A stretch of DNA of 64,000 bases, taken from the NCBI GenBank assembly GCA_037043015.1, contig CM073326.1:682001-746000 (forward strand), read 5' to 3'. Both the position numbers and the translations under genes were made by a program. Shown in pieces: positions 1,576 to 35,529 of the stretch; within the stretch, counting starts at the first letter, position 1, and each line of letters begins with the position of its first letter. Origin of the DNA: Bryum argenteum (lineage: Eukaryota; Streptophyta; Bryopsida; Bryales; Bryaceae). The notes under the pieces were generated by a model, which did not search any database, was not told the DNA's origin, and worked only from the letters and a program-made list of their open reading frames with translations.

Positions 1576-1579
1576 CAAC

Positions 1580-1608
1580 AAGGGGATATTCGTTATTTTG
1601 AGACAAAA
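1580..1608 (+). repeat. Left terminal inverted repeat of the 19.6-kb element
   Basis: About 29 bp matching the right end in inverse orientation with a few mismatches. The shared blocks are AAGGGGATATT and TATTTTGAGACAA. A further TTTTGAGA motif lies just inside, at 1,615-1,622. Confidence 0.85.
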
Positions 1609-2313
1609 TGGACATTTTGAGATGTTGAAAAACGTACACGCACGAGGGATTAGGAAAAAGTTGTTGAAGTATTTCAAAGATATGAAATTTAAATTAACAT
1701 GCTAAGCAAAAAGAAAGAGTTGAAGGGTCCAATCACAAAGCAATAGATTTGAAAATGAGATCTTACTATAAATAGGAGGAAGTAGAGATCAATTTGGCAA
1801 TATAATATTTCTAAAAATAGACATTCAACAATACATAGTAAAGAATCATATAGGAACCATGTTCACATTATTTCCCCTGAGAAGTCACAATTGATTCAAG
1901 TGAGATCATAGTTGAAAGACATAGTAAAGGTTGTATTGAAGTATGAAAAATACGTACAATTGTACAAGTGTACACTATATTTTGACATTGGTATATATCG
2001 TAAAAGAATGAAATCAGAGAATGAATGTAGAGGCATTAAATGTTGTGCCTATAATAATACTAAAGATAGAGTAATTAAAAGAATGTTTGTAGAATATACG
2101 AGGAATATACGCGGAATATACTAATCACAGAAGAGCAATAAATGCATAGTCACGAAGGGGATAATCCTCAAGTAAGCACAACTAGCAAAGCCTTGATATC
2201 TTAGATGTACTAGGTTCCACCAATCTGCGACACACATTAATTATGTTGAATATATCCCGCTGATGAAGGATATCAGACCGGAGGAGGAAGAATAGAAAGG
2301 AGGAACATTAAGG
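1609..2313. other. Subterminal AT-rich region, no gene seen
   Basis: AT-rich DNA between the left terminal repeat and the last exon of the first cargo gene. The only open frame (1,912-2,124) has no recognisable motif and a composition expected by chance. It probably holds the 3' untranslated region of the minus-strand gene ending at 2,314. Confidence 0.5.
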
Positions 2314-3159
2314 CTAGGTCTCTTTAGATTTAGAGCCATTCTGCTTGGTTGAATTCTCCAACAACTTGGCTTCGGCCTCGTGCTGCTTCATAAGCGCGCG
2401 AATAAGATCATTGCGACGAGAGTTTGGCAAGCAATTAGTACCCAAGGTCTCACTCCGACGGGCAAACAAACCAGTGTCAAAACATTCCCCATCACGCCTA
2501 CGAAGGGAGTCAAGAGAACGTGAAGGACGAGAGGATGAAGGAGCCGCCGATTCTCCATGCGCGAGGATACGGCCGGGGGTGCAAGAAGCTCGCCTTGATG
2601 GTGGGGGTCGCGATGCTAGTGGCTTTGCAAGAGGCAAGAAATCCCCCTTTGAACGAAGATGTCGCGGGGCACCGCCGAGGGATCTTGTTGTCCTGCTACT
2701 CTTGTAATTGTTGACTTGGAACGCGGGTTGTGATGTATTGGACGTCCCACCCACATTAATGGTGGAAGGAGGAACAATTGAATCTCGCAAAGGAACGTCC
2801 ATAGCGCCCACAACGGAGTAGAGCTGCCTCTCAGGTGTTTTTGAATTTAGAGCATCGGGCGACATAGAGCGCCTCCGCGATGGTGATGTACAAAGCCGCT
2901 TCAGGGGAGACGGAGAGCAAACCGGGGTCCGAACAGGACCACGACTCGGCGGGCTGTCAACAACATTGTCATCAACACTATCTCTTGTAAAATCCATCGT
3001 TGCGGATGCTGCGTCCGTAGCCGTGAACATATCAAAATGCCTCGACGCGAGAGAGGCGGCAACACTTGCTGAGAGTGAAACAGAACATTCCGGGACGGAG
3101 GTCTGGTTGGAGACATCATCCTCATCACCGGACTCCTCGACGGTGGAAGGCGCCCTGAC
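2314..3159 (-). CDS. Last exon of an unknown Ser/Arg/Pro-rich protein
   Basis: An open reading frame of about 280 codons on the minus strand, preceded by a good splice acceptor (a pyrimidine-rich run ending in TACAG just above 3,160) and ending in a stop at 2,314. The protein is rich in Ser, Pro and Arg, with motifs such as SPLKRLCTSPSRRRSMSPD, and ends in a basic helix (RNDLIRALMKQHEAEAKLL). It looks disordered and nuclear, with no catalytic domain that I recognise. The upstream exon is not resolved; the intron above it contains degenerate copies of the 21-bp palindrome at 3,226 and 3,381. It lies directly downstream of the FCP1-like gene on the same strand and could be an additional exon set of that transcription unit, although the FCP1 frame has its own stop at 3,641. 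Confidence 0.45.
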   Translation of the reverse strand, partial: VRAPSTVEESGDEDDVSNQTSVPECSVSLSASVAASLASRHFDMFTATDAASATMDFTRDSVDDNVVDSPPSRGPVRTPVCSPSPLKRLCTSPSRRRSMSPDALNSKTPERQLYSVVGAMDVPLRDSIVPPSTINVGGTSNTSQPAFQVNNYKSSRTTRSLGGAPRHLRSKGDFLPLAKPLASRPPPSRRASCTPGRILAHGESAAPSSSRPSRSLDSLRRRDGECFDTGLFARRSETLGTNCLPNSRRNDLIRALMKQHEAEAKLLENSTKQNGSKSKET

Positions 3160-3225
3160 CTGTAGAACAAACCCAGAAATGAAAGGAGTCGGTCAGGAAA
3201 GATGGACGCAAGAAAAATGGAAAAG

Positions 3226-3401
3226 TTATCCACGAAGCGGGGATAACTCTAGCCGGGGAGAACTAACGTCCTGTTCACAACCAAAAAGCATACAAGAACA
3301 TAAAGCAAACAACCAGTGAAATCAAACTCGACATAAAGAGAACATATGACTCAATGCATACAAGCTGATACCTCCAGAGATTATGCCCGGGCCGAGCATA
3401 A
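3226..3401. repeat. Two degenerate copies of the 21-bp palindrome
   Basis: Units at 3,226-3,246 (TTATCCACGA, then AGCGGGGATAA) and 3,381-3,401 (TTATGCCCGG, G, CCGAGCATAA). In the second, the fifth base of the arm changed from C to G and the pairing base on the other arm changed to match, so the dyad is kept. Both lie in the presumed intron upstream of the 3,159 acceptor. Confidence 0.6.
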
Positions 3402-3640
3402 ATAACGTCCTAACTGACAACAAAGAAAGAGTCATAAAACAGAAACAATCATCAACATCAATACTAAGTGAACAAGCATCCACAAATGATGTAATAGAAA
3501 TTGATCACATTGCGATGTGGTACATAAAGGATGATAAAATAATCGGCTTTTTTATTTAAACCATGATATTCATACAATAGCAACTCATTTACATATTTAT
3601 CTACTGTGTCCGAGAAAAGGAATAAAGAGCGCACTAATCG

Positions 3641-4620
3641 TCAATTGGACAATGACTCAGGAAATGAAGGAGTTTCGTAAGTACGCCCTAAGTTCCTATG
3701 CGACTGCGCCATACCATCTAAAATAAACCGACCTAAATTGCTATACTTATTGATAGGCGGAATACCAATCCTATGATTGTCTACATAGGACCGAAGATTC
3801 CCAGGCCTGCAATTGGCGAGAAGAGCAAGTAGCCACGGAGTAAGCACGGCGGACAGAGTATTGTCCTCCCGGCTAGATTTTGTCCAAGGCTGGAGGAAAA
3901 TGGCGTTCCCAGTGTGGTTGCAAATACTCTTCTCAGGACTGTCGTCTATAAGGAGAGTGTTATCCAACCCAAACACAACAGCACCGTTACTAAGCGGGAA
4001 CACCGCAGAGGACAATGTTTTCAAAAATATCCTCTTTTGAGCATTGGTCGGGTACGACAAAAAGACACCTCTGCTAACCTCAACCAATCCACAAGACTCT
4101 TGTCCGAGGATCTCAAAAGGCTTAGGAAGTCCATGAAGAGGTAGTCGATAACGGCCTCAACAAAGTGGACTTCTTCATCGAACTCCATATCACAACCCTC
4201 GCAACATGGGCGGACATGGTCTCCAAGAAATTTCTCACTCCCCGGGCGAGAAGACCGCCTTTGGGGGCACCTTCGCTGGGATGTCCGGCACGTAGAGCCG
4301 GTCCCCAGGAGAGCACAAGGGAGAATTCTTCCCGAGCGATGGCAGATGCACACACTGACAAAGAATCCCGTTGATGTCGAGGACGACATTCAACCATCGA
4401 GGCGGCGCTGTCTGCCCGAGTGCAGACCTCGGCCGCGGGACACACTCAAATTGGGAAATCAATTCTACCTGGCATCAAAGGAAACGATAATGTTGAGGAT
4501 ACCTGATTGAAAGCAGAGACACTGCGATCTGAGCAAATCCACAATGACGGCATGCATTGCATCCGTGGCATTGGGGCGGATCGATCGGATTCTCGATGCA
4601 ATCTCACGGCCCGTGGGCAT
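3641..4620 (-). pseudogene. FCP1/NIF-family (HAD) phosphatase-like gene, frame-disrupted
   Basis: Reading the minus strand across several frames gives a recognisable FCP1-homology (CTD phosphatase) domain. The N-terminal motif is VVLDINGILC, matching the DxD/DxNG nucleophile loop. Next come GVRNFLETMSAHVARVVIWSS, the strand and helix before the WSS(M)KK block, then VEAVIDYLF. The distal HAD motif is NTLLIDDSPEKSICNH, followed by a typical YVD tail. Family members remove phosphate from Ser/Thr, classically on the RNA polymerase II C-terminal domain. Coding probably starts at the ATG at 4,620 (MPTGREIASRIRSIRP). Frame changes near 4,475, 4,255 and 4,165 interrupt it; they may be decay or sequencing errors. 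It sits inside the 19.6-kb element, downstream of the ParB-like gene, as cargo. Confidence 0.65.
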
Positions 4621-4799
4621 GAGAATGAATCCCACAGAGGTGAACCGAGAAAGACATTGAGGAAAATCAAATCACATTCCAATTTGAAGGCGAGATAAAT
4701 TGGTATCAAAAATAAGTTTATTTACATCAATCATGATACAAGGGATGTGTCATCAACTCGACCGAAACACTACATTTGGGTACTAAAACTACCGAAAAT

Positions 4800-7700
4800 C
4801 TAGAATACATGACGCGCCACGCGTAAACGTTGACAAATCGCAGAAAAATCATAACGAATAAGGGTCGACGATCTCTGCAGGAGAAAATAGACGAATAAGC
4901 GAAGTTCGTGCAAGCGAATCGGTTCGGGTTACGGCCAAGCGACAAAATCATGACGGTTGTGACGACGACGAGTTATTGCAGACATGCGGGGGAGGGTGAA
5001 AGTACTTACATCTTCATGTGGCTCTTGCGATTGAATCGCGTTGGTCGGGCTAGACGAATAGTCCACCAACTGCTGGTCTTCGGACACCGGCGCCGCGACG
5101 AGCTCAGGATCGGTCTCCTCCACTTTGACTCTTGGCTCCGCATTATCCCCGGCTCGGGGATAACTTACCAGCTGGTCGTACTGCGAAAGTTCTAGACCAG
5201 AATCGGGTGCTTGATCAGACTCAACCACTGGAGCAGCGGGTGCCAGACTCGATGAATCAGGACCCAAGGCAGGATCTTCGGCGGGAGGGGAGACCTCTAC
5301 AGAAGAGTCTGCATTATCCCCGGGCCGGGGATAATCTCCAGACTGAGGAAGCTGATCGGAAACAGCATCGGGCTGATCGGAAACAACATCGGGCTGATCG
5401 AAACAAAGATCGGCCGATCGAAGAAAGATCGGGCCGATCGTCGAAACAAGATCGGGCTGATCGGAAACAGGAAACGAAGCCTTTCGTGACACGACCTGCT
5501 CGGGTTCCCTCTCGAGGAATGGGCTGCTACCAAGGCGTCGAGCGGTCAGTAAAGAAGATTATCCCCGCCCGGGATAATCTGTGTGGCGGCTGTCCCAGGA
5601 GAGCGGCAAAGGCTCGACATCGCTGATGGGTGCAGACGCGGTGGTCGTGGCAGTATTATCCCCGGGCCGGAGATAATCTGCAGCAGGCTCGGAACTCAGC
5701 GTGCCCGAGGTGGAAGGATTATCCGTATTCTGCCGAGCGATTATCTCAGCAACGTGCGGTGGCATCGGCGTGTTAGATCTCAGCCATTCGAAGACGATGT
5801 TAGCCTCCGCGATCTTCCTTGCGTCCTCTGCTTCCTTCTGGGCCTTCTCCTTCTTCTGTCTCGCCTCTTCGGCTAGCCTCCTGGTGTTTGCCAGGTAGTG
5901 TTCCTCAACCTTCACACCCGGAGCACCTGGAGGAGGCGCAACACCTGCTGCATTCGCCATTGGGTCAGTAGAGGGATTGCACACCACGACAGGTTTCTCC
6001 TTCTTCACAGGCGTGCCAGCATCAAAAGAAGCCTGGTCAGAATCATCAACGGGCAGGTTACGTTGACGGGAGCTCAAAGGTGTCGATGTCGGGAGCACGA
6101 TGGCTTCGCGTTCGGGAGCTGCGACATCGACAACATAGAATTCATCCGCCTCATCAGTGCCATCGTCGTCACTGAGATCAATGAATACGTGGGTGGGCGC
6201 GACGAGTGCATAGAGTGGCTTCCCCCGTTTGGTAGGATCTTTACTCTGAGGGGTTCTGTCCACCGCAGGCGCCACAGTAGAAGAGGGCATGGCGCAAGAC
6301 GCCCCATCCAAAGGTTGACCCGGTGCCACTGTCTCAGCTGCGAGATCGAGCCGGCGTTTCAATGGCCTTCGCGAGTCGGGGTTGCCCGATGATCCGACGA
6401 CAACATCCGCAGATGATTGTACAGGCATTGTCGTTGACGTAACGAGCCTCGAGGGGATCACAGGCATGGGCTCCTTCCCAGGGCGTCGGGTCTCGGTATC
6501 ATGCCTATGCGCCTGGTGCTCATCACCCATCGGACTGGAGATACGAGGAGATGTCTCCATTGCTTCCGGTGATGGTGCGGTTGGCGAAGCTTGCGCAGAC
6601 GGTGCAATGGGCGATGCCGGCTCTGGTGCAGCTGTTGGCGATGCATGCGGGGATGACCTGACCGGGGAATGCCTAGACGCCTGACGTCCCGATCGATAGT
6701 CCGAATCGTCAGAATCGTCACCATCGGAGTCGTTTGATGTGGCATCGCTGTTCCTTTTCTCCGAGGAGTCTGCAGACGTATCTGGAGCTTGAGCTTGAGG
6801 GGACCGCGTGCTCTCAGCTCCCATGTCGGACACCGGCTCTGCTGCAGAAGATGAAGGTTGGCTCCCTTCGAATGAAGCCCTCGTGACGAGGCTGAGGTCC
6901 TGCATTTCGTCGGACGAAGAGCTCTTCTTGGGCACGTAGGGACAGTCATCGTGTAGGAAGTCCCTATAGTCGACCCTTGTCCTTTTACCCGCAGAGAGTA
7001 AGTATCCCCCGTAGTAGTGATTGTCAATCAGGCCATAAAAGGCATGGTTCAGGATCTGCATGGGAAGAAAAGAAGCGATCAATAACGGTGATGCACAAGG
7101 GAAAAGTTATCCCCGCCCCGGGGATAACTGATAGAACAGAACGCGAAACTGAAAATTTGCAGGATTACGAGCAACACAGGAATACACTGGTATAAACTGA
7201 AAGTTATAAAAGAAGGGGAGCTATTTATCCCCGGGGCGGGGATAATGGGTCTATTTCGAGACAAATGAGGATGCTGGGTGTCAAGCTTACCAGGGAGGCG
7301 ACCATGAATTTAGAGCCGGAGAAGATCCCGAGTGTTGCGTCACCCTTCTTGCAGTACTGGCGGATGAGTCCAATGTAGAACTCCATCCGCAGCTCGGAGT
7401 ACTTAGCACACCACTTGGCTTCGTTGAAGTGCCCACTATCGATGTAGTACGGTAGATGGGCGGGTTTGAACTCCGTCGGGTTTGTGCCGATGAAGGCTTC
7501 CCCTTCTGGTGTCTTCTTGAACAAGAAGACAATGAACACGTCGTTTGCAGCTCTCTCTGGGGCTGGTGCGTTGAAGATCCTCTCAGCTTTCGCCACCACG
7601 TACTTGGATGTGCTCATTGTGTAGGTGGGGTGGCTGAGCTGAATCATCGCCTTCAGCTTCTCAAGCTTCTTCGTAGTGCCGCCGTTCACGATCCAGACCC

Positions 7701-10170
7701 ATACGGTAGGGTCGGTGTATGCTGGACTCGATATCACCGCGAACTTTGCTACCAATGCTTTGAAAAACATTTTCGCAGCATTGGCGTCCTTGCAAAGCGA
7801 GAAGGTTGTGTCACGCAAGTCAAACAGCCCCAGCGAAACTGTTCCCTCAGGCGCCTTGGTTGACCATTGGCCAGTAATGGTCATGGCCTTCGAGTCGAAG
7901 GTCCGAAGATCGAAAGCCTTCGTGGACTCCCGATGCTTGGACTTCTGCCGCAAGAAGCCCTTGAAGAAGTCCTCAACGTTGGGGTACAAGGACTTCAACT
8001 CCCCCGCCGTTTTGAACTTCCCCTGATTCTGCAGTCTGGTCGAGTAAAATTTTGGCTCGACGTGGCTGAGCAGCATGTTCCACGACGCCGTCGAGAAGCC
8101 CTTCCTCGACTTCCATACCTTCCATTTCTCAGGGCTTACTCCTCCGTCGTTGGGAAGGAAGAATGGGAGAGATGGCCTAATCGCCTTCAGCTCTTGGTAC
8201 ACAACACCCTTGCACTTCTGACGAAAAATCCAGTCACCACAGGCGTGGCTCAGGCGATGGAAGTACTTCGTCTTGTGGAAGGACAACCTTGGATACTTCA
8301 GCGCACCTTCGGCGGTTTCGACGTGGACAAGGTAAGTGATGACCCTGTCGATGTCGTCGTCGGAAAGATTTCCGAACTTCCTGAAGAGCTCCCGGCTCAC
8401 ATGATGCAAGTCTCGCGTGAAGTACGTCGGGTTCAAGCGATAAGGTCCGCCTGTATCGGGGTTGATCAAATTTCCAAGCGAATGAAGTTCGAGGAACTCT
8501 GCGAACTTATCGTACATGCTGTCTGGAAATGTGATAATCTGGATCTCGTGCTTGAGGTCCGATGTTGTCAAAATCAACTTCCCGACCTTGGTGGGATCGA
8601 TGTTGCGAAACCGGATTAACAGAAGATCCGTGAATTTCTGAGAAAACAAGAAAGAAAGGTTAAATGCGATTAGTGAAGGAACAATGAATACGTCTGGAAC
8701 AAACTCAGAAACAGAAGCAGGATTATCCCCGGGGCGGGGATAATCTTTGGGAATGGTGTATTGTCTTACCTTAAAATTGGTAGGATTGTAGACCGAGTTG
8801 TTATTCCGCGTCGCGTTCTCGTTCAGGCTTGCGGATGGACGCCCACACTCGATCCAAATAGACCTTCCAGGTTTTATTTGGTTGCCCCAAGTCGGCTGGG
8901 CGTGCTTCAGAGGGTTCGTGGTGTTGTAGAAGGCCGAAATCGCTGTAAGGCGCTTTGGGTCGGTCTCGTACAGAATGTAGGCATACCACGATTGTAGCTC
9001 TTTCTTCCTGTCCTCTGTCACGGGCTCGTTCTGAAGCTCCCTCGAGGCTTCCACGGAGTGCTGGCCATCAATGATGGCAAATTTACCATCTTTTATCTCC
9101 TCCCAAGTTCTTGGCCTCCTAGGGAGCAAGTTTCCACTAGCGTCAATGGGCGTGATGATGATCGTCTGCCTCCTTGTAACATCTCCCATCATTGCGAGGT
9201 ATGCCTTGGTGTTCGTAACGATGTCCCTTTCAAGACTTCGCACAACCCATGCGTCCTTTCCCCTCTCAAGCTGGGAAATGGGCACCAGCTTCTGTTCTTT
9301 CTTGAACAAGAAAGAGTCCTTGAAGCTTTGGTTGAAGATTGTCTGCTCAGAAGCAAACCTCACATAGTCTGCCACTTCAGCAGAAGGTTTCGATGATTCC
9401 TTCTTCTGTCGGGCAGGCACTGCGACTACGGAAGTCAAGGCCGATCCTTGACTTGCGGTTGCAGGGGGAGCTGTACGCTGTCTCTTCTTCTTGGGGGCGC
9501 CACCGCCTGCAACGATCGCATCATTCATCAGCCTCTTCGAAGGCACTCGCGGAGGTGCCGGTAGAGCACCACTAGACTGCGGAGCTGAAGCTTCCGTATG
9601 CAGGACAACTGCAGACGCGGCGGGTGCCTTCTTCTTCTTGGCCGCTTTACTGCTTGACCCTTCATGCGTCTGTGACAGCCTTGACAGCATGGTCGAAAGC
9701 TTACGAACTGTATCTTCTTGGTTGATGTTCTCCCAGCTGTCGATTTTGTCCTCCCAGAACTTGAGAAAGCCATGCCGAGTCTTGCGCAGCTCTGCAAGGA
9801 AGCCATGCGGGTCGAACTGCGCTCCGCAGTTTTCACCCACCTCTACCACAATTCCAAAGTGGTAGGGATCCCTACCCTCGTCCTGTTGTTGAAGGACACA
9901 CCTAAGCATCATGTACTTCTGCCTGTGTGCCTCGAATGCTGTTACCCTCACATTCTGGTGTAAGGGAAGAAATGGGTCCGTCATGACCAACTTGGTCATA
10001 ACGAGGACATGGTTCTTGACGATCTTCAGTGACCAGCTGACGACCACATCTTTGAAGACCCAGAGGTCAAGGCCTTCGTCGTCGTTATCGCGGAGGAAGG
10101 GGTTGAAGCCGAATGGGTGCTCGACCTTGTCCAAGGTCATGTCGAGAGGATTTGTGGCGCTGAGAGCCAT
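4800..10170 (-). CDS. ParB-like (DGQHS-motif) multi-exon protein with methyltransferase-like C-terminal region
   Basis: The start is MALSATNPLDM at 10,170, just after a leader-intron acceptor at 10,179. Coding exons are 10,170-8,770, 8,637-7,291 and 7,055 to about 5,010, with a probable last exon 4,874-4,800 and an AATAAA signal at 4,717-4,722. The GT-AG introns 8,769-8,638 and 7,290-7,056 carry palindrome units. Around residues 280-430 lies a ParB/sulfiredoxin-like block (VPISQLERG, then FAIIDGQHSVEASREL), the position of the GxHR loop of ParB folds; here Ser replaces Arg. Basic nuclear-signal-like stretches (AAKKKKAPA, PKKKRQR) precede it. The later part (LGLFDLRDTTFSL) aligns by position with the methylase-like region of the gene at 54.7-58.0 kb but lacks a clear catalytic motif. 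The third exon is acidic, Ser/Pro-rich and probably disordered. The frame is unclear near 5,560. Confidence 0.55.
5143..5677. repeat. Four palindrome units in or near the third coding exon
   Basis: Copies at 5,143-5,163, 5,314-5,334, 5,559-5,577 (two bases short) and 5,657-5,677. On the minus strand, three of them read in frame as YPRPGDN-type heptapeptides, because 21 bp equals seven codons. The 5,143 copy also touches a GTAAGT donor-like string, so an intronic location is not excluded. Confidence 0.7.
7056..7290 (-). other. Intron 2 of the ParB-like gene, with two palindrome units
   Basis: The donor (CTG then GTAAGC) and acceptor (ATGCAG then ATC) are both good. Splicing joins KFMVASL to ILNHAFYGL in frame. 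Palindrome units lie at 7,107-7,127 and 7,225-7,245. Confidence 0.7.
8638..8769 (-). other. Intron 1 of the ParB-like coding region, with one palindrome unit
   Basis: A 132-bp intron with donor AAG then GTAAGA and a pyrimidine-rich acceptor ending TTTTCTCAG. It happens to be open in frame, so a naive translation reads through it. The palindrome unit is at 8,723-8,743. Confidence 0.7.
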
Positions 10171-10178
10171 GGTTTTGT

Positions 10179-11028
10179 CTGCAATCGTAAATGACAATTC
10201 GTTAATACTGGTGCCTTAAGTAACAAATTTGTTATCCCAGAGGTCACATAGCCTCTCTGCATGCAGAAGTTATCCCCGGGCCGGGGATAACTTCTGCATA
10301 CAGAGCTCACAAAGCTGCTCTGCGTGCAGAAGTTATCCCCGGGCCGGGATAATTTTTTCGCTTCTGGCAGAAATTATCCCCGGGCGGGGATAACTTCGCA
10401 TCTGAGTTCTTATAGCCACTCGCATGCGAAGTTATCCCCGGGCCGATAATTTTTCGCTCTGGCGAGCAGAAATTATCCCCGGGCGGATGACTTCGCATCT
10501 GAGTTCTTATAGCCACTCTGCATGCAGAAGTTATCCCCGGGCCGGGGATAATTTCCTGCTCATAGCAGAAAATTATCTCCGGGCCGGGGATAACTTCTGC
10601 ATACAGAGTTCTTATAGCCACTCTGCATGCAGAAGTTATCCCCGGGCCGGGGATAATTTCCTGCTCATAGCAGAAAATTATCTCCGGGCCGGGGATAATT
10701 TCTGGACGCAGAGGTCACAAAGCTGCTCTACATGCAGAAGTTATCCCCGGGCCGGGGATAATTTCCTGGTCAGACTAGAAAATTATCCCCGGGCCGGGGA
10801 TAATTCCTTCTATCATAAGCTAAAGATTCAGCTATGAGCAAGATTTATCCCCGGCCCGGGGATAACCTTGGTAGCCACTGTAGAAATATTGTGCATTGGC
10901 ATACATGCAATCCGGTGAAACTAACGCTATATCTACATACGCCGTAGATTTTAGCATTCCTGAAGCAATTTCACTGAATTCGATTGAGTTCATGAATCCA
11001 AACAAAGCAATTGGAATTGGGATCTCAC
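10179..11028 (-). other. Leader (5' UTR) intron of the ParB-like gene
   Basis: The donor is CAG then GTGAGA at 11,029/11,028. The acceptor ATTGCAG ends at 10,179, eight bases before the ATG. It contains palindrome array 1. Assigned from splice consensus only; no transcript evidence is available. Confidence 0.5.
10270..10875. repeat. Palindrome array 1: 12 units, 42/63-bp alternating spacing
   Basis: Units start at 10,270, 10,333, 10,374, 10,432, 10,473, 10,531, 10,573, 10,636, 10,678, 10,741, 10,783 and 10,855. The core is a 10-bp arm TTATCCCCGG, one central base, and its complement; a few copies are short by one or more bases. Spacing alternates between about 42 and about 58-63 bp, giving a repeat of about 100-105 bp. 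The short spacer (TTTCCTGCT-CAT-AGCAGAAAA) and the long spacer (CTTCTGCAT ... ATGCAGAAG) are themselves inverted repeats, so the whole array is made of nested dyads. Confidence 0.9.
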
Positions 11029-11029
11029 C

Positions 11030-11870
11030 TGAAAGGAGTGCTTAGTCAAGGCTGAATGTGCGATAACAAAGTAGCCCAATTCCTTGATGAGTTCAGTAAA
11101 ATCCTGGACTTGCACCACCTTCCAAGCAGACACCTTGAACATCAAAAAAATACACTTGATTCAGCTCAAATCAGAGTGCAAATTCGATAATCAAGCAGGT
11201 TAGAGTAGACATGAGAACTTCCATCATCAAGCAGCTTCCATGCAGTGACCTAAATTTCTGAATTTCGATACCCAATAGTGACACAAAAACAAGAAACAAC
11301 AGAAAACAAGCACGACTGCAATTCGGAAAATACAACCCTGATTTTGTGAAAAGCAGAAACAATTAGCACAGGAACTGGGACGAGCAAAACCTGGGAAGCG
11401 TAGGTGGGGAGCTCAGGATCGCAGGCGGGGAGCTGAGGAGCGTAGGCGGGGAGCAGCAGCGATCACCTGGAGCGGCGACCGAAAAGGCAGCGCAGCAGCG
11501 AAGGAGCGAACAGCAGCAAAGGCAGCACCAAACACCCCGAGCGGCGAGCAACACCGCAGCGAACACCTGGAGCGGCGACCTCAGGAGCGAAGAGAGAGTG
11601 CGCAATGCGATGCACAGGAGAGCAAAGGCTGAAAAAGCAGGAGCGAAGCGGAGCGGAGAGCAAGTGCGGCACAAAAGCAAGCAAAAAAAAACGGCAAACG
11701 GCGCAGGGAGCGATGCGATGCACAAAGGCGGCGAGCTCAGGCGCGGAGCGATGCACAGGAGGAGTTCACAGGCGATGCACAGGAGCGAGTGCGCAAAGAG
11801 CGGAGCAGGCGCAGACAGAACTGTGCGAGGGAATGTCGGCGGGGGTGGTCATCATGACCCGGCCCCCATA
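11030..11870. promoter_or_regulatory. GC-rich upstream region of the ParB-like gene with short repeats
   Basis: From about 11,380 to 11,860 the sequence is much more GC-rich than its surroundings and repeats variants of GCGATGCACAGGAG (near 11,607, 11,711, 11,749 and 11,772) and of GAGCGGCGACC. It lies upstream of the leader exon of the minus-strand gene, so promoter function is inferred. Open frames in it look like composition artefacts. Confidence 0.4.
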
Positions 11871-11892
11871 ATCACGCTGATGGGCATGCATG

Positions 11893-11953
11893 TCTATGAC
11901 CATATGCATGGGCATGGACATGTATGTGTCCATGCCCATGCACATGGTCATAG
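11893..11953. repeat. Long near-perfect inverted repeat (hairpin or cruciform)
   Basis: Arms of about 28 bp: CTATGACCAT..GCATGGGCATGGACAT pairs with its complement downstream, with two mismatches and a loop of a few bases. Weaker pairing extends outward on both sides. It sits at the edge of the AT-rich core. Confidence 0.75.
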
Positions 11954-11969
11954 GCATGGGCAGCTTGTA

Positions 11970-14520
11970 TCTAAAAAAAACCCTAATTTTTTTATTCTAA
12001 ATTGAACTAGTATACTAAGACTTCGTGTATTTTTTATTTTAATTAGTATATTCTAAATTTGTATTCTTAAGGTAAAGTCATGTATTCTAAGATTGAATTC
12101 GTAAATTCCAAAATTTTATTTTGATATGTATTTGAATGATCATCATTTTTTGTCTTAGTTTGCATACTTTGGTACGGTTAAAATTGTCCACGTACAAGAA
12201 TTTCAGTATACTAAGTTTACATTCTGAATACGTAAATGATTTTTAATATGTTTGTGTTCAAAGTTTTAAATTCATGTATTCTTAGATTGTATTCTAAAAT
12301 TAGTACTTCTTGTACTTGAAATGGAAAATCACTATTTGAAATGGAAAATCACTTGGAATATTTTAGAACATTTGATCAATGTTGAAGAGGTCTATTTATT
12401 TTCAATTTTTTGGTAGATATTATCTCTTTGTTTTGTACGCAAAAGTAGTCATCTTTCCTAAGTATATTATGTCTTAATTTAGAATACGAATCTATTCATG
12501 GTCAGGGCAATGAAAGGAAAAAAAAAAAAAAAACATTGCTTACTTTTTTTTCTAGCTTTTTTACTTCAGTAATTGGTTTTTAAAATAAATTTGGTATGCA
12601 AAGAGTTTTGAAAAACACTTTTTAGTTATTAATCCAAGTTTAGAATGCATAAACATTCTTTGTTTTTTTTTAAAAATTTGACTTGGTGTTCTATTCATAT
12701 GCACTTTTGATTCCTTGGAAGATCATGTATAACTCCTAACTTCCCTTAAAACATGAAACGGGTTTTGGAGGTTATCGGAAGAGAAAAAACTCAGCCATCT
12801 TTGACCATTATAGTCTCACAAATGGGGAAGAATGAACGGGTTAAATTTAAATTTGTGGAGGAATGTTAAGTGAATTTGAGATCTTATGGTTGAATCTTTT
12901 AAATAATACTTAGATTCTAATTTTTTGAACTAAATCTAAAGGAAAGTGAAATTTTGTGACTTAGACCGTCTTGCAACAAGGTAATTTAGGGGTTAAGTTA
13001 TGAATAGAAGACTTTTTTAGGTCTGTTCTATAAAGTATTTTCTAAATTAAGTATGTGAAAGACCTTTGTCTTATAAATGTATGCTACTATACAAAATGTA
13101 AATTCTTTGTTGTTTTCCAAAATGATTTTTTGAAAGGTTTAGTAATAAATTACATATAATTATGTTTGTACATATATTCCTGATTAAGTTGAAGATAAAT
13201 TTTCAAAAAGTCTATGTATTCAAGATAGAAACATTGACAATTATGATCCTATGATTAGGTAGATTAGAATTCTTGGTATTATAAGCTAAGTTTAGAAGAT
13301 AAATAATATAATCTATTAATACTATTATTATTTATTTTATTTAATTAAATATAATTATTAGTAAATATTATACTATTATAATTATTTCCTATAATTTCCA
13401 ATATTTTCCTATATTATACTATATTATATTGTATTATAAAATTTAACTATTATTATTAATTATATAATTATTACTATTATTATTAATTATATAATTATTA
13501 CTATTATTATTAATTATATAATTATTACTATTATTATTAATTTTATTTACTAAATATTATATTTAATCTATAATTACTAATAAATAATCTAATTTCATTT
13601 CAAATCTGAGGTTGTATTTTTAAAACCTTAGCTATGTGAGTATTGATTGTACAGTTAGAACATTTTATACTATTGCAATGTAATTTTGTAACTCAAACTT
13701 TGGTCTATTTCATCTATGGTAGGTAAACATTGATGCAATACACATATTGTAAATAAGGTATGGAATAATTTAGTACAAAATAAATGAAATTTCATCCAAT
13801 TTATGTATGACAAATACACATCAATACTAATCTCCATTTGCTCTTTTAGTAGAGAATAAATCATAAGGAATCAAATAAATAAGAAAATTCTCCAAAGATC
13901 TACTATACCATGATGACACCAAGTATTAAAATAAAGTTGAAGGTATCATAGATTTTTCAAATGAGAGTAACATTTATTTATTGTGTTTGATATTATTCAA
14001 CAATAAAACCATAAAGTTCAAGTACTTAATAAAAAGAAAAATAAACTAACGAAGTATAGTAGATTGTTCAAGAGAAGTAACCTACTTTTATAGTTATCCA
14101 TTTTCTTCTATGGTATGAGCACATACGTCAATGTACCTATTTACTTCAAAAAAAACCTATCAATACTATTATACCATTATAAGTATTTTTTCATTATCCA
14201 ATGACTCTATTTGAACAAATATTTTTGGATTAAACAGTAACTATGTTATATATTTGTAAGACTATAGGGCTTGATTTATCAATCAACAATATTCTTTTTT
14301 TAAGTATATAACTGTGTACTCATGTTTTAAATTAGATTAAAATATCTTGTAATAAAACATAGGACCTTCTTATAATAGATTTTGTTAGATTGAAAATTGC
14401 AATTGTAAAGACTAACTTCGACGGTTATAGCCAAATTTTTTTTTCTTAATGTAATTTTGTTATACCTATCAATTGAAAATAATAAACTTACTTACTAAAA
14501 GAGCCGATTATTTTGTTTCT
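11970..14520. other. AT-rich core of the element, no gene seen
   Basis: About 2.5 kb of AT-rich DNA between the two divergent transcription units. No open frame has coding character and no RNA gene was recognised. It contains the 27-bp tandem repeat listed separately. Confidence 0.6.
13447..13554. repeat. 27-bp AT-rich tandem repeat, four copies
   Basis: Unit CTATTATTATTAATTATATA plus seven bases, starting at 13,447, 13,474, 13,501 and 13,528, nearly perfect. Confidence 0.85.
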
Positions 14521-14524
14521 ATGA

Positions 14525-14640
14525 TGTGGGCGATGCCTGCGAATATTGCATGACGGCCGCGCTCGCGCCCCGATAACCCGCACGATAGTCCGAGTTGTTC
14601 TAATCGTCACCGTCGGAGTCGTTGGAAGCGTCATGACCTT
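14525..14640. pseudogene. Decayed fragment of the ParB-like gene's third exon
   Basis: A GC-rich island in the AT-rich core. Its segment ATAGTCCGAGTTGTTCTAAT through GTCACCGTCGGAGTCGTT closely resembles 6,690-6,750 of the ParB-like gene, with GGGCGATGCC shared further upstream. It is about 100 bp and not translatable as a unit. Confidence 0.55.
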
Positions 14641-14759
14641 CCTACTTCTTTGATATCATAATAAGATTTTTTTGAACTAAATCTAAATAGGATTTCTAAT
14701 GTGTGAGTCATTCAATCCAAGCCTTCAAAGGCGTAATTTTAATTCTCTCAAGCTAGTTG

Positions 14760-15398
14760 TCATTGCTATTTTGAAAAAAAAAGTTTAGGTACATATAAAG
14801 AATTATAATATAATATAACAGAAATTAACATATTAAGATATAATACTATAGAGTATAATATTATTCAATATAGTACAATAGAATTTAATAGTATATATTA
14901 AATCTTACTTAATATCCTTTAATATAAGATAGTAAACTATAGTATAATATACTATCACATAGTATTATCTAGTAATATATTCTATCCAATAATTAGTATG
15001 ATATATTATAATATATTATAATATATTATAATGCAGTATAATCTAGTATAATCAAACATAGTACAATATAATAGAATATAGAATAATAAAAGAATATCAT
15101 ATAGAAATATACTATAGGATAATAACATAAATATATTGTTTTGAAGATGTAATATTATATTACATAAAATAAAATAACATAAATTAATATAATATAAAAT
15201 AAAATAAAATAAAATAAAATAAAATAAAATAAAATAAAATAAAATAAAATAAAATAATATAATATAATAGACTATAATATAATACACTATAATATAATAG
15301 ACTATAATATAATAGACTATAATATAATACACTATAATATAATAGACTATAATATAATAGACTATAATATAATATACTAAAAATAATATATTATACAA
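14760..15398. repeat. AT-rich simple sequence: (AAAAT)n and a 15-bp repeat
   Basis: Degenerate TATA-rich DNA, then about 65 bp of AAAAT repeats (15,190-15,255), then about eight copies of a 15-bp unit (GACTATAATATAATA and variants) to 15,376. Confidence 0.85.
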
Positions 15399-16161
15399 AA
15401 TATAATATAATATAATATAATATAATATAATATAATATAATATAATATAATATAATATAATATAATATAATATAATATAATATAATATAATATAATATAA
15501 TATAATATAATATAATATAATATAATATAATATAATATAATATAATATAATATAATATAATATAATATAATATAATATAATATAATATAATATAATATAA
15601 TATAATATAATATAATATAATATAATATAATATAATATAATATAATATAATATAATATAATATAATATAATATAATATAATATAATATAATATAATATAA
15701 TATAATATAATATAATATAATATAATATAATATAATATAATATAATATAATATAATATAATATAATATAATATAATATAATATAATATAATATAATATAA
15801 TATAATATAATATAATATAATATAATATAATATAATATAATATAATATAATATAATATAATATAATATAATATAATATAATATAATATAATATAATATAA
15901 TATAATATAATATAATATAATATAATATAATATAATATAATATAATATAATATAATATAATATAATATAATATAATATAATATAATATAATATAATATAA
16001 TATAATATAATATAATATAATATAATATAATATAATATAATATAATATAATATAATATAATATAATATAATATAATATAATATAATATAATATAATATAA
16101 TATAATATAATATAATATAATATAATATAATATAATATAATATAATATAATATAATATAAT
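15399..16161. repeat. (TATAA)n microsatellite, about 150 copies
   Basis: About 763 bp of essentially perfect pentanucleotide repeat. Long open frames through it (LYYII repeats) are artefacts of a period that is not a multiple of three. Confidence 0.98.
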
Positions 16162-16199
16162 ACAACATACTACAATATACTAAATATATTATATAACTC

Positions 16200-16875
16200 T
16201 AATTTTGTAGTTATTATAGTTTATTCAATAAATACACTAATACGAATTCGTATTTCTTTTTCCACTTCTCATAGTTATGTATACAATGTTCAATTTTGTA
16301 GAGAAAACTATAATACAATATTTTTTGTAAAAAATAAAAAACCGTTATTTAGAAATGGGTTTCCCTCCAAAATCAGTTTCCCGCCGAACCATCTTTGCCG
16401 CCTAATTTTTTCAAATTTCAGTTTGAAAAAGTGGAATCGTATTTAGATTCCCAATCAAGACAATCCATATTGCGACAAAAACCTGTCCGCTTTTTGCACG
16501 ATTTCGGGCATCGAGATACTCTCACGATGTACCCGTTGGGGTCGGCCTCGGGTTGCATACTCGGTTTCTCAAGTGTCATTTCATTTTCTTCTCACTCTCT
16601 ATCGTGCTCTCAAGGTGCGCTTCGTTTCGTATTTCGTTCCGGTGTGTAGATTCAAGGTTCTGTGTGTGTAGAAGGAGTTTCAGTTGGTGCTCAATGCGTC
16701 TGATGTAGTTTCGCATTTATAGGTTTCAGTATTGTTGCATTAGTTTGAGAGTGATTCAAGTTTTGACTACTGCTCCTCATGTTTCTTTTCGAATTCTGTA
16801 TTAAGTACTGATTATTGTGCTTGGTTTTGTTCAGTTGCGAGCCCTTGTTTATCTTTCGAATTCTGCAATTCGCAG
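16200..16875 (+). promoter_or_regulatory. Promoter and leader exon region of the DUF7869-like transposase gene
   Basis: After the microsatellite the base composition becomes mixed. A strong splice donor (TTCGCAG then GTGAGC) lies at 16,875/16,876 and would end a leader exon. No start codon with coding continuity is seen before it. The exact transcription start is not identifiable. Confidence 0.4.
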
Positions 16876-17839
16876 GTGAGCGATGTTCGCAAATCGAGTG
16901 CAAGGCGTGAATGCCAGTATTTCAGCACTTACTATTAATAGAATGGAAGTTATCCCCGGGCCGGGGATAATTTCTCTTGTCTGTGGGGATTATTTCCATA
17001 TGCTATGCTCCGATTATTATCCACGGCCCGGGGATAATGAAATAACTGCCCACAAAATACCATTATCCCCGGCCCGGGGATAATAGTTATTTTGTGGCGG
17101 TCGAATAGTTATCCCCGGCCCGGGGATAACTATGTAACCGCCAAAAAATAACTATTATCCCCGGGCCGGGGATAATAGTTTCTTGTGGGCGGTTACAAAG
17201 TTATCCCCGGCCCGGGGATAACTATGTAACCGCCAAAAAATAACTATTATCCCCGGGCCGGGGATAATAGTATTCGCGGGTCGGTTACATAGTTATCCCG
17301 GCCCGGGATAACTATTCGACCGCCACAAAATAACTATTATCCCGGCCGGGATAATGGTATTTAATGGGCGATTATTTCATTATCCCCTGCCCGGAGTTAA
17401 CCAACCAACTGCCCACTAAAGACTTTTATTTCCGACCCAGGGATAATAGTTTTCAGTGGGCATTTGGTTAGTTCTCCCCGGGCCGGGGATAACGAAATAA
17501 CTGCCCACAAAATACCATTATCCCCGGGCCGGGGATAATAGTATTTTGTGACTGATGCATGGTAATCTCGGCCCGGGGATAACTAACCAACTGCCTACGA
17601 AGTATTTTTATCCCCGGGTCGGGGATACTGGTTATTAGTGGGAAGTTTGGTTGTTATCCCCGGGCCGGGGATAATTCTTATTTTTTTGTCAGTTGCATAG
17701 TTATCCCCGGCCGGGTTAAACATGCAATCGCTCAGGTTAACATACAGCTAGTTTATACTCAACGGAATTCATGTTTTCTCATCTTGTTTGCTATTAAACA
17801 AGCACTAAGCTATCTTCTCAATCTTCTTCTTATTTGTAG
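16876..17839 (+). other. Leader intron of the transposase gene
   Basis: Donor CAG then GTGAGC at 16,876; the acceptor is a pyrimidine-rich run ending TTTGTAG at 17,839, two bases before the ATG. All 17 units of palindrome array 2 are inside it. Assigned from consensus signals only. Confidence 0.55.
16950..17719. repeat. Palindrome array 2: 17 units on a 46-bp period with alternating inverted spacers
   Basis: Units start at 16,950, 17,017, 17,063, 17,109, 17,155, 17,201, 17,247, 17,293, 17,337, 17,380, 17,426, 17,472, 17,518, 17,562, 17,608, 17,654 and 17,701. The spacing is 46 bp except where a unit has lost a few bases. Spacers of about 25 bp are related and mostly alternate in orientation: TAGTTATTTTGTGGCGGTCG at 17,084 is the exact reverse complement of sequence near 17,312. 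Each core is therefore the centre of a larger inverted repeat of about 70 bp. Confidence 0.92.
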
Positions 17840-17840
17840 G

Positions 17841-20658
17841 ATGGAGACTTTCGTCGTCAATGGTGTCGATTTCCGTCCACCAGTTCTACCTGACGGAGTT
17901 GCACAGTGCGAGGGTTTTAGCCGCTCATCATGGGTGTCGAAACGTGTCACTCTTCTGAATGACGCCGGTGTCGAAGTTGCAAAAGCTGTCTGTCAATCGG
18001 TTGACTCTAGCATTGTCCCAGAGTCTGGTGGTCGGCCTCTTGGATCCGACTTTGTCTGCGTGCAGATTGCAGAGTCATTAGTAGAAGCAGAGGTTCCTTT
18101 CGGTTGGATCTACTCTTTGCGTGCATGGCCGATCAAGCATGTCCTTCTCAACGGAGCAAGCCTCTACGACCACGACCAACGCGCAATCTTCAATGGAGCT
18201 TGCAAGGTTTTTGGTCGGCCACCACGAGTTGGTCTCCGTCAGTACGAGAGCAAACGTCAAAGACGTCTTCGGGATTCACCACCAAAGAAGGAGTACTTTC
18301 TTACACCGGAGTCCATCAACTTTGTTTCAACAACTTATTGTTGTCCAAAGAATTGTGTACAGCCCTATCCTCGAGCCAAAATTAAAGATCTGAGGTTCCA
18401 GTTCTATGTTCGCGGTAATGTTTACTTCAGAAAACATTGTCTCCTCAGTGTGCATGGTCAAGTCCACGAAGCGGCGGACGGAAATGACATGATTATGTTG
18501 GAGGGTATTGAGGTGTGTTGCGTGGCGTGGTACCTGATTATGGGTGTGTCACGTGCCACATTTTTCCGGTGGAGGTATGCCTATCAAGACGGACAGCAAG
18601 CAGAGAACCATGGAAACTGTGGTTCAAAGAAACCTCGTATCCAGACATTGCAAGCCACAAAGATCCCTTCAAGCCATTGTGAAAATGCTTGCCGATCTCA
18701 TGCCGCATCGAACAAAGACTATTGATACAAAGCGAGAAGGTAGTGTCCAAATGCTTGCCCTCCTCCTTCATTTGGAGGGACAATTTACCGTGAGGTGAAT
18801 GCTATCAATGCCGTCCACGGTCTTCCTCCTATATCAAATTCCGCTCTAAGTAGGATCCGCAAGAATCATTCCAAGAGTACTATTCCAAGCAAAAGGGTGA
18901 CACATTTGCACGATGTGGTGAATGTGACAAAATCAAACAACTTCGAGCATCCAAGATTTCGAGGCAGTCGCGCATGGGCTCTTCATGATGCCAAATTCAA
19001 ACGTCATAATACTTCTCAAATGGCGCATAGGTTACTATATTATAGCAACCGTTCAGAGTCTGAGGCGCGGCCCGAATCATCTTTGTGCATTATTCATGAC
19101 AAAATGGATCATTCCAAGACAGCCTCTCCGCAATTCTCACACAAGAGTAAATCGACCGATTCGTTCATGAAATTGCCGGTTTCCATCACAGGCATGATTG
19201 CTCATGGACACGGAGATGTACGTTACGCACATTACGGCTTGGATATATATCCCACGGATTCTAATCATACTATCGGTTTATTTGCTCAACTGTTAAGAGA
19301 TTTGGAATCTCCTCCAAAGTGCTCTTCCAGGCAGTTGTTTGGTGGTGGTAGAAGTAGCCCTCTCTGTGAGGCTGTTTTGGATGGGGCGGACATGTGCTTG
19401 GATTCGCTTGGTCTTCTCCCGGAGGCTCCAATTCGGGAAAGCCTCTTCCTCGGTGCTACACATGCGACTTGATAATGCTTGCGGGGATAATAAGAATCGG
19501 TTTGTTTTTGCATTCTTTTCATTGCTCGTTTACAAGGGCGTTTTTAGAGAGATTTACTTGAACTTCCTTATTGTGGGTCACACTCATGAGGATATTGATG
19601 CTCTTTTCGGGCGATGGAGTAGTAAACTCAAGACCAACAGCTACCCTACTGTTCCCCTTCTCATGAGATCTTTTATGGACACAGAGGATAAGCGGTAATT
19701 CCTCACTTAATTGAGGAAGTTCCGGATTTCAAGACGTTCATCAAAGGTTACCTCTGTGATGGCGACGAGGCGTTATCTGGGCATACTAGTGCCCAACAAT
19801 TTAGGTTTTTTAGAGATGCTTCCGGCTGGCCTTTGATGCAGTACAAAATTCTATGTACGGATAGCGAGTGGCTTCCTCAAGATAGTGCAGGGGTTAGGTT
19901 GTGGAAAGTTTTGCCAAATGGTCAACCTCAGGTTCCTCCTGGAGATCCTACGTTACTAGTTCCAAACGAAATGAAGAATATTGAAGACATTCGAAAGGGA
20001 ATTAGTGGTTTTGTGAGCTTGTGGGAGTCTTTGGCGGATGCGGATCCAACAGGGGACTATCGTAGACATCATGAGCAATTCATTTACTATTGGAAAGCAG
20101 TTCGTGAGGCTTTAGATTTACCCGTCCCTACTCCATCAACATTTAGGGATGGATTTTGGCCCACTTCTAGGTACTCTCCAAGTGAAGAGGATCGATTTGA
20201 AGATAACGGAGAATTACGCGAGGAATTTGATGTTGATCCTCCGTTCGTAGGACAAATACGAGATCGTCCACAAGCATCATTCCGAGTTGGACGGGATGTT
20301 TATGAGGGATACCTACTTGTGCTACGTCCGGCTGATGGAGATCTCAAGAAATTTTGGATAGCTCGTGCTTTGAGCAATCCAAATGCTAGTGTCGAGCATC
20401 CTCAAGAAATCCACATTGAGTATTGGAAGCCGGTATCTTCCGAAACATGTCAATCCTGACACTTACGAAGGGTGGGATACAAGAAGAGGTAACTCTTGGT
20501 GTAAAGATATGGATTATGATCCAACTTGGGTGGCTACATCATCAATCATGGGAGCTTGGAAGCCAAGATTTCGTCTTGAAACCGTTAATCCCAAGATGTG
20601 CATACCGGAGCTACAAATTTCAATTATTAAAGACTCAATTATCGAGTTTGATGAGTAG
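17841..20658 (+). pseudogene. DUF7869-like DDE transposase-type protein, frame-disrupted
   Basis: The start METFVVNGVDF at 17,841 follows the leader-intron acceptor. N-terminal part: a Cys-rich block (YCCPKNC), then the core CCVAWYLIMGVSRATFFR and HGNCGSKKPR. Central part: IIHDKMDHSKTASPQ, then MRLDNACGDNKNRFVF and FLIVGHTHEDIDALFGRW. These Asp/Glu-containing blocks match the RNase H-like core of the plant and animal DUF7869 family as I remember it. C-terminal part: FWIARAL, IEYWKP, YEGWDT and WVATSSIMGAWKP, a BAH/Tudor-like tail seen in relatives. The frame shifts near 18,650, 18,770, 19,430, 19,690 and 20,450, so it is either decayed or mis-sequenced. As the only transposase-like gene of the 19.6-kb element, it is the natural candidate for mobilising it. 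Confidence 0.65.
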
Positions 20659-21190
20659 TTCTCATATTAATGTATAGTTATATTAGCTTATATTAGTTAC
20701 AATGGTGCATTCTTCCTCATCGCAATGTAGCCAATGCAAATTAGAGTAGTATGACACTACTTCTAGAGATGATTTATCTATTTATAGTAAGATAATATAT
20801 CCATTTCAATGTATTTCCATGGTATTATTTCCTTCTATTGGTGTTGTGATAATTTTATTTCCCTATAAAAAATTAATATGTCCTTTGATCGGATTACTTC
20901 TTATATATATTTTTCTTTAAAGTAATAATATTCATCATGCATAATACTTTTTGGTCCTCGAAGCTTGCAATCTATGACTCGAGTAATGAGATGTGAAGTA
21001 GTCTCAATATACTTTCCGTCTCAAAATAATGAATATTAATGATCAACAAATATATTAATAGAATTTTTGGTATCGAGGGTTCAAATTACATTCTTTTGTT
21101 GGGTTCATTCGAGTCTCATTTTCAATTGAGTCTCATTTTACTTGACACCACATTTACTATTTTTAACCACCGATTTAAATTGAGATTGCA
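20659..21190. other. Right subterminal region with repeated GTCTCA motifs
   Basis: AT-rich, no gene. The motif GTCTCAAAATA, part of the terminal repeat, recurs at about 21,020, and GAGTCTCATTTT occurs twice at 21,111-21,140. Such subterminal motif repetition is typical of transposase-binding regions. Confidence 0.55.
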
Positions 21191-21219
21191 AATTGTCTCA
21201 AAATACTTAATATCCCCTT
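21191..21219 (-). repeat. Right terminal inverted repeat of the 19.6-kb element
   Basis: On the minus strand it reads AAGGGGATATT, three bases, TATTTTGAGACAA, matching the left end. It is immediately followed by the CAAC target duplication. Confidence 0.85.
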
Positions 21220-21324
21220 CAACTCAGTCCCCACCAATCCTGCGTTTGTGTTTTCTGTTGCAGGTGACCTCAAGGTCTGTTCAGAATTAGCTTCCATGTT
21301 CGTGCTATCAATATCCGTCGCCAT
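21220..21324 (-). pseudogene. Left-arm RING-type gene, N-terminal codons
   Basis: The ATG at 21,324 starts MATDIDSTNMEANSEQTLRS, identical in sense to the right-arm gene at 33,080. The frame is cut after GTEL by the TIR element; the rest continues at 1,575 on the minus strand. Confidence 0.85.
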
Positions 21325-21520
21325 GAAGAATAGGGAGTATTTAAAATACCCCGAAGATATCCCAAGTATGCAAAAATTCGATGCAGCAGCCGCAAGTATC
21401 ACGCTGACTTCCCCCCGCCACCACAAATGCAAAGACACACGAGAAGCTAATGCCCACGGTTTGGCTCGGTTGAGATGGATGAATACAAGGAGAAGTGAGG
21501 GGAAATGAGGCCCCAAGGGC

Positions 21521-21823
21521 CTTTATATCCCCTCCTTCCCAACCCTAGGGGACGCCCGCACGGACGGTCGCTCGCCAATCACGGCCGCGCGGCCGTCGGC
21601 CGTCGGGCGGCGGTCCGGCCGACAGATTCATGGCGGTCGATCCGGCCGACAGATCATGGCCGGTCGATCCGGTCGACCGATCGTGGCCGGTCGTTCGGGC
21701 CGGCCGGTCGCTACCGACCGGTCGCTGCCGACCGATGTGGCCGGCCGATCGTCGCCGCTCGATGTCGGCCGACCGATCTTCGGTCGACCAACGCGCCGAC
21801 CCGCCGATGTGAAGCGGACGCGT
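21521..21823 (-). promoter_or_regulatory. TATA box and GC-rich CGGTCG patch upstream of the left-arm gene
   Basis: GGATATAAAGG on the minus strand at about 21,521-21,531 lies about 200 bp upstream of the ATG. Beyond it, 21,541-21,823 is a run of overlapping CGGTCG, CGACCG, CGGCCG and GATCGG words. The right arm has the same arrangement at 32,624-32,890. Confidence 0.55.
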
Positions 21824-34755: not shown

Positions 34756-35529
34756 CGATGATGACGATGATGAACTTCCGGAGGAATTGAAGTTAAGATC
34801 ACAAAAGGAGGTAGATGATGGACAGATTGAGCGACAACGAGCATGGGCGATGAAGTTCGCGGCAGTGAAGAAGGAGAGAGATGTTACAGTTGCGAATTTG
34901 GAGGAGGAAGCAAAAGCATGCTCAATGAAGTTGGAGGCTACAAGTAAAGAGAGAGATGAGGCAGTCGTTGAATTGGAGGCATTACGGAAAACCTTCAAAA
35001 CGGTAGATTCTAGAGAGGCAGCAATCCACCTTCACCTACGCATACTACCATGGTTGGCATGGGTTCATCGACTTCAAGATAAGAGGAGCTTGGTTTCGAG
35101 AGCAAAAGAAGATCTGAAATCGATTGCATCTACATCAAAGGAATCACGTGAAGTTGTAGATGCTTCATTGGAGAAGTTCTGTACGAACAGATCAAAAAAA
35201 CGATATGACCCCATAGAGGTCACTTTTTGGGGGGATATTAAAGAGATGATGGAGCGTACAAACTACTCTAAGATGGGACGAAACAATGATGTTGATTGGA
35301 CTATGGAGATAGAGGAAGGATGGGCGCCGTGTAGTAGATTCTCATCGCACCTACAAGAGTCAGCTTGCATTGTAATCAACACATGCGACCCTCCTCCCGC
35401 AATACTTAAAGACAAATGTGCGGTGTGCCTACATAATTTTGGTCCGGAAGGCGCATACACGTTAGGCCAATGTGGCCATAACTTTCATGTTACTTGCATA
35501 TGCCGATATGCGATGACAAAATCGGTATG

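Follow-up and report, generated by a model that had tools for sequence, protein, structure and literature searches.

A 64,000-nucleotide stretch of the Bryum argenteum genome (assembly GCA_037043015.1, contig CM073326.1, positions 682,001 to 746,000; hereafter the window) contains a transposon with terminal inverted repeats (TIRs) at 1580-21219, 19,640 bp long, which we assign to a family A. It carries a transposase gene, an accessory gene on the opposite strand, and many copies of a 21-bp palindrome of 9-3-9 geometry, which form arrays upstream of both genes and also occur one by one in the predicted introns of the accessory gene. Among related element families in this moss the sequence of the palindrome differs while its layout stays the same. 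That the palindromes are family specific, differing where the accessory gene differs, goes beyond the original prediction for this stretch, which had been made from its letters. On balance, we think that the accessory protein probably reads the palindromes and controls the element's own expression, as VANC proteins do.

Palindromes and their family-specific spelling

The copy in the window holds 31 sites of the type TTATCCCCG-N3-CGGGGATAA, counted with 10-bp arms, spacers of 0-2 and up to three mismatches. The palindrome arrays that had been predicted are present as two arrays, accompanied by single sites:

10270..10865, unstranded: palindrome array 1, which precedes the accessory ATG and probably falls within a 5' intron
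16950..17720, unstranded: palindrome array 2, within the intron predicted to come first in the transposase gene
8723..8743, unstranded: single palindrome, intron between two accessory coding exons
7225..7245, unstranded: single palindrome, intron after the second accessory exon
7107..7127, unstranded: single palindrome, same intron as 7225..7245
5143..5676, unstranded: single palindromes at 5143, 5314 and 5656, within the linker stretch, either exon or intron
3226..3401, unstranded: degenerate palindromes at 3226 and 3381, which separate the phosphatase part from the open reading frame (ORF) P1

In this copy the two main accessory exons and the transposase ORF contain no sites. Ten copies of 17-20 kb, the window copy included, carry 23-48 sites each and a 12-kb copy carries nine, with array lengths that vary between copies. 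The genome contains 661 exact family A sites (with a GSC centre). Chance palindromes were rejected as an explanation, given that none appeared in 20 mononucleotide shuffles of the element and that reversed patterns had no genomic match. At nine single sites in 10 related copies, where the individual cells are non-independent, divergence is 0.066 versus 0.130 in the flanks, and it is lower at eight of the nine sites taken individually.

Relative to family A, family B (on contig C4) shows 52% identity in the transposase, 32-33% in the accessory protein and 38% in the phosphatase part of that protein. It keeps the layout, with TTATCGTCG-N3-CGACGATAA at the corresponding places. Its ends, AAGGCCATATTCGTTAAA, lie 19.8 kb apart and match each other at 25 of 26 bases; a 4-bp duplication was a condition of the search for these ends, so only the match between them counts. 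Family C (on C3), at 75%, 45-50% and 68% identity for the same three parts, has the A-type palindrome in more varied form and an A-type right end. The transposase of family P (on C10) is 35% identical to that of A and 55% to a Ceratodon protein, and its accessory protein is 26-39% identical to that of A and 37-42% to P0113 of Physcomitrium patens; the site here is TTYAACTCG-N3-CGAGTTRAA, and it occurs within the accessory introns and in two arrays, one upstream of the accessory gene and the other directly upstream of the transposase. There are 127 B-type and 1494 P-type sites in the genome (controls, 0). With mismatches counted in the arms only, families A, B and P do not carry one another's palindromes at up to one mismatch; at up to three, one to six B-type matches occur in six of the 11 A copies.

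A fourth spelling, TTCAGCTCG-N3-CGAGCTGAA, was found on two contigs from another source (L041 and L042, two of 119 pattern matches), which had been binned as a cyanobacterium (metagenome-assembled genome AVDCRST_MAG81). The sites in L041 lie between and just after coding stretches, as in introns; one site in L042 is a P/Q hybrid, and the positions of its sites relative to exons are undecided. Because the gene in L041 is interrupted as if by introns, we read both contigs as contamination, and they look like eukaryotic, probably moss, DNA. Among viral contigs there were 211 pattern matches, none of them a relative.

Across these spellings the 9-3-9 geometry, the places, and the outer and inner bases (TT...CG) are kept, and the middle changes where the accessory protein changes, as would be expected of a co-evolving protein-DNA pair. 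Family D has five palindromes at up to one mismatch and nine at up to three, a poor fit, and in the 20 kb of it that were read we found a phosphatase-like stretch, on the same strand as the transposase, and no accessory exons. Within family A, the site at 3381 runs counter to the trend toward low divergence. No report of such palindromes was found in the literature searched.

Element boundaries, copies and superfamily

The boundaries of the family A element rest on the following features:

1580..21219, plus strand: whole element (family A), from TIRs, target site duplication (TSD), empty site and further genomic copies
1576..1579, plus strand: left TSD, CAAC
21220..21223, plus strand: right TSD, CAAC
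1580..1605, plus strand: left TIR; 22 of the first 25 bases pair with the right end, and 28 of 40 listed genomic matches begin exactly here
21194..21219, minus strand: right TIR, from comparison of the ends with each other and with genomic matches to the right end
33181..33184, minus strand: empty target site, a single CAAC where the flanks recur in inverted orientation; identical to the joined flanks at 200/200 bases
17841..20658, plus strand: DUF7869 (three-aspartate, DDD) transposase gene; PF25273, 5e-27; frame breaks in the window copy
16876..17839, plus strand: 5' intron predicted for the transposase gene (GTGAGC ... TTTGTAG), from splice consensus only

The left terminus at 1580 reads AAGGGGATATTCGTTATTTTGAGACA, and the same 11 bp stand inverted at 21219; AAGGGGATATT is present in inverted copies at both termini, with CAAC on either side, and the termini have the form AAGG...CCTT (AAGGGG at the left). 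When 100 bp of each flank are joined with one CAAC, all 200 bases are identical to the uninterrupted inverted copy at 33181. The flank duplicate without the insert aligns at 99.4% (1-1579 vs 34754-33181) and 94.3% (21220-23694 vs 33184-30737). The multi-gene TIR transposon that had been predicted, with its borders, its CAAC duplication and its empty site in the window, is thus confirmed.

The original prediction had also proposed searching the source genome with both ends. The genome searched comprised 258.8 Mb in 25 contigs, and we took the best 40 of 95 left and the best 40 of 94 right candidates, pairing each left end with the nearest correctly oriented right end within 150 kb. Among these matches, 28 of 40 on the left and 25 of 40 on the right start exactly at the terminal base. 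They form 24 oriented pairs (15 of 17-24 kb, one of 12 kb and eight of 32-87 kb), leaving 16 of the 40 left and 16 of the 40 right ends without a partner. Ten further family A copies were read, giving 11 with that in the window, and all are chromosomal inserts. A perfect 4-bp duplication surrounds each of the ten copies with both flanks read, in ten different sequences (CAAC, CTTG, TAAA, ATGT, ACTT, AAGT, TTAT, ATAG, TTTG and CTAG); copy C3 is outside this count because the sequence read stops short of its left end. The genomic end pairs and the perfect duplications are not explained by chance, a single rearrangement or a misassembly. The 12-kb copy (C1e) retains just 14% of the transposase. 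The eight widely spaced pairs, on contigs C1, C3, C7, C8 and C10, may be nested insertions, elements with extra cargo or wrong pairings. Among the matches listed, contig C1 (44 Mb, the longest contig encountered) has 21 of the 40 left and 15 of the 40 right ends, and 20 of the 23 left ends with no more than 95% identity, which suggests that C1 is a chromosome that keeps old inserts.

The predicted DUF7869 identity of the transposase was upheld by its PF25273 match. The matched stretch contains 12 stops in the window copy versus none in the copy at C1:41569798-41572587, where the frame is open over 930 amino acids (aa). The predicted structure has an RNase-H fold with invariant Asp residues at beta1, beta4 and the last helix, the third being D584 or D586 of P0002. 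The DUF7869 protein models as a DDD RNase-H transposase, on the basis of a VIA second look together with the invariant residues; a Foldseek search by itself returned nothing from the PDB at E <= 0.001. No paper in the literature collection searched mentions DUF7869.

The view that a 4-bp duplication falls outside the main superfamilies was too strong: Sola elements are described as having this length (PMC10741241), and a Sola1 element of giant size has been published (PMC12477816). With its 4-bp duplication in all ten family A copies read on both flanks and its predicted DDD transposase, the element appears to be a giant two-gene DNA transposon of Sola1 type, well supported as Sola1-like on these two features. 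EnSpm/CACTA elements have CACTA termini and mostly a 3-bp duplication, and KDZ/Zisupton elements an 8-bp duplication; the AAGGGG ends and the 4-bp duplication led us to reject the former, and the 4-bp duplication (10/10) the latter. Ginger elements, which end in 5'-TG...CA-3' (PMC10741241), were likewise rejected on the AAGG...CCTT ends.

Ectocarpus Sola1-1_Ec32 (21.5 kb, Sola1; PMC12477816) resembles the moss element in type and in its size of ~20 kb, in having a long opposite-strand accessory gene with a ParB-like part, and in a host with a long haploid stage. The two differ in that the algal gene combines the ParB-like part with a DNA methyltransferase (1104 aa; PMC12477816), whereas the moss gene has a NIF/FCP1-type phosphatase part and no recognizable methyltransferase. 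The available account of Sola1-1_Ec32 mentions no family-specific palindromes; its authors propose that the protein binds and modifies the element's own DNA (PMC12477816). Physcomitrella Sola1 (table of PMC9033089; PMC10741241) shares the moss host and the Sola assignment, and DUF7869 proteins (P0025 and others) occur in P. patens, as do two homologs of the accessory protein (P0113 and P0114).

The element occupies one arm of an inverted duplication of ~4 kb (1-1579 and 21220-23694 vs 30737-34754), which contains a 913-aa ORF (32861-35602) whose end is RING-like. Approximately 280 copies of TATAA fill 14804-16193, between the two halves of the element. Elsewhere in the window are an ORF of a long terminal repeat retrotransposon (reverse transcriptase RNase H and integrase; 38690-41368, minus strand), a DUF659 ORF (48239-48907, minus strand) and satellite DNA of ~254-bp tandem units at 91-95% identity, which spans 58843-64000 and continues past the window end. 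CpG depletion as a sign of methylation gave no clear signal (observed/expected CpG 0.72-1.27 across regions).

The accessory gene

The minus-strand ORFs at 10215-7225, 7106-5559 and 4389-3641 appear to be parts of one long gene, with the predicted exons as follows:

8770..10178, minus strand: first coding exon (start codon ATG at 10170), containing the conserved IKDGxFxIIDGQH motif; splice-like acceptor GATTGCAG before the ATG, donor 8769
7291..8637, minus strand: second coding exon; acceptor 8638, donor 7290; P0113 homology; codon position 3 excess
5559..7055, minus strand: low-complexity linker exon(s) with an uncertain 3' boundary; acceptor before 7055; codon position 3 excess
3641..4490, minus strand: NIF/FCP1-like phosphatase region, frame broken in the window copy; PF03031 20.8 bits, cut-off 21.8
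2314..3192, minus strand: P1, a Ser/Pro-rich ORF of ~290 aa, possibly the last accessory exon; absent from P0113; codon position 3 excess

A ParB-like and an FCP1-like gene had been predicted separately. The only database matches of ORF 10215-7225, however, are two proteins of ~1550 aa from P. patens that carry the name "FCP1 homology domain," and both combine a homolog of this ORF (24% over 96%) with a NIF domain. The first coding exon is colinear with P0113 and P0114 and shows an excess at codon position 3. The parts follow the same order in the five copies compared, with GT...AG-ended stretches between them. Because of the P. patens fusion and the colinear order, we treat the two as parts of one accessory gene and not as separate cargo. 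Codon-position counts indicate purifying selection on the transposase, accessory exons, linker, phosphatase part and P1, with flat controls; P1 is open at 291-292 aa in six of the 11 copies and at 305 in one more, and the phosphatase region is open over 277 aa in copy C1a. Candidates scored in the genome searches numbered 49 of 2590 for P0001 and 30 of 2056 for P0113. At C6:647164-650064, ~32 kb ahead of the window start, lies an accessory gene whose type is P. patens-like.

The PF03031 match reaches 54.3 bits in P0113 and 50.2 bits in P0114. The catalytic motif of NIF/FCP1 phosphatases is DxDx[TV]. This motif was not found: motif I reads DxNG in P0113, P0114, family C and nine of the 11 copies of family A, and it was not found in copies C3 and C1c or in families B and D. 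Motif III is DDSP wherever it was found. As for the ParB-like label, ParB/Srx-like domains carry a GxxR/DGxHR-like motif, and the label here derives solely from a short stretch, IKDGxF..GQH. In the form E[DE]IKDGxFx[IV]x[DN]GQH it is conserved in families A, B, C and P and in P0114 (P0113 is without it, perhaps owing to its gene model); scans of the accessory protein against Pfam, NCBIfam and PHROGs returned no ParB family. A tblastn search of the protein against phages gave a single chance-level row (E = 4). PDB matches obtained with alignments A3 and A4 (best E 0.039) were judged low-complexity matches to ribosomal S4, and an AlphaFold 2 (AF2) model was set aside for its low confidence score (pLDDT 29.5).

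Possible readers of the palindromes

We propose that the transposase cuts and pastes the element by recognizing the TIRs, and that a dimer of the accessory protein would bind the palindrome of its own family through the "IKDGxF..DGQH" part. The arrays would then concentrate this protein on the promoters and introns of the element, and there it could control transcription or counteract silencing, as VANC does for VANDAL elements in Arabidopsis. The phosphatase-like part may be a docking module or may target the transcription machinery.

VANDALs are Mutator-type elements. In VANDAL21, motif arrays occupy introns of VANC21 and VANB21 as well as the region upstream of VANA21 (PMC5735166). The moss element is similar in having a short family-specific motif upstream of the transposase gene and in accessory-gene introns, with arrays in the non-coding parts of the element, and motif and protein diversify together, as they do in VANDAL21 and VANC21 (PMC5735166). 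In contrast to the moss palindrome, the VANDAL21 motif, YAGTATTAY, is non-palindromic, and VANC21 has been shown to cause demethylation (PMC5735166). The accessory proteins scanned had no VANC-like Pfam family among their matches; they were not compared directly with VANC sequences.

An unlikely alternative, although the least unlikely of those considered, is that the palindromes are internal or subterminal sites of the transposase itself, serving synapsis or autoregulation. In family A the half-site GGGGATA is common to TIR and palindrome, array 2 lies directly upstream of the transposase ATG, and transposase divergence between families also tracks that of the palindromes; the A-type palindrome and right end of family C are compatible with either view. 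However, the palindromes are mostly distant from the ends, many of them within introns of the other gene, and in family B the TIR, AAGGCCATATT, and the half-site, GACGATA, have diverged differently. TIR and palindrome therefore probably have different readers, as judged from this one family.

A somewhat less likely alternative is that the accessory protein binds and chemically marks the element's DNA, as proposed for the algal ParB and DNA methyltransferase. Element type, size and opposite-strand position are shared with Sola1-1_Ec32 (PMC12477816), and toward the end of the second exon the series ELRMEFY...GD...FxGxK resembles, by eye, the order of elements in N4/N6 methyltransferases. No methyltransferase family matched at E up to 10, however, no DPPY-like motif was seen by eye, and the domain actually found is the NIF phosphatase.

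That the palindromes act as RNA, in hairpins of 9-bp stems and 3-nucleotide loops signaling splicing, processing or small-RNA production, seems improbable to us. In the window element, presumed introns and upstream regions contain or adjoin nearly all of the sites, a perfect palindrome can fold into a hairpin, and mismatched pairs are slightly rich in G-U in the presumed RNA sense (101 G-U vs 70 A-C). Yet a further 185 mismatched pairs are neither, the relatedness of the copies means that the 101:70 skew is no clean test, and a fixed family-specific spelling is needed by a protein reader and not by a hairpin. Finally, parS sites form arrays, and the ParB-like motif and clustered palindromes recall them, but a true partition system for segregation or replication of an extrachromosomal form is very improbable, as no ATPase partner was recognized when ten ORFs were scanned with Pfam, each of the 11 copies read sits in a chromosome, and many sites lie in introns and not at one partition locus.

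What is new is probably the system of accessory protein and palindrome, a giant Sola1 with an opposite-strand ParB-like gene having been published already (PMC12477816). More tentatively, and with less confidence than we place in the reading of palindromes by the accessory protein, a giant Sola lineage may have evolved private self-recognition independently of VANDALs, in which protein and palindrome co-diversify, the element's own introns and promoters are marked for protection from silencing, and the effector resembles a phosphatase of the polymerase carboxy-terminal domain. Within the literature searched, VANDAL/VANC is the only detailed case of sequence-specific anti-silencing by a transposon (PMC5735166). 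Because four natural site spellings exist, recognition and its evolution are directly testable, and P. patens, a laboratory moss, has homologs of both genes. If the proposal is true, it would add a second, apparently unrelated case, and private address systems would be seen to recur.
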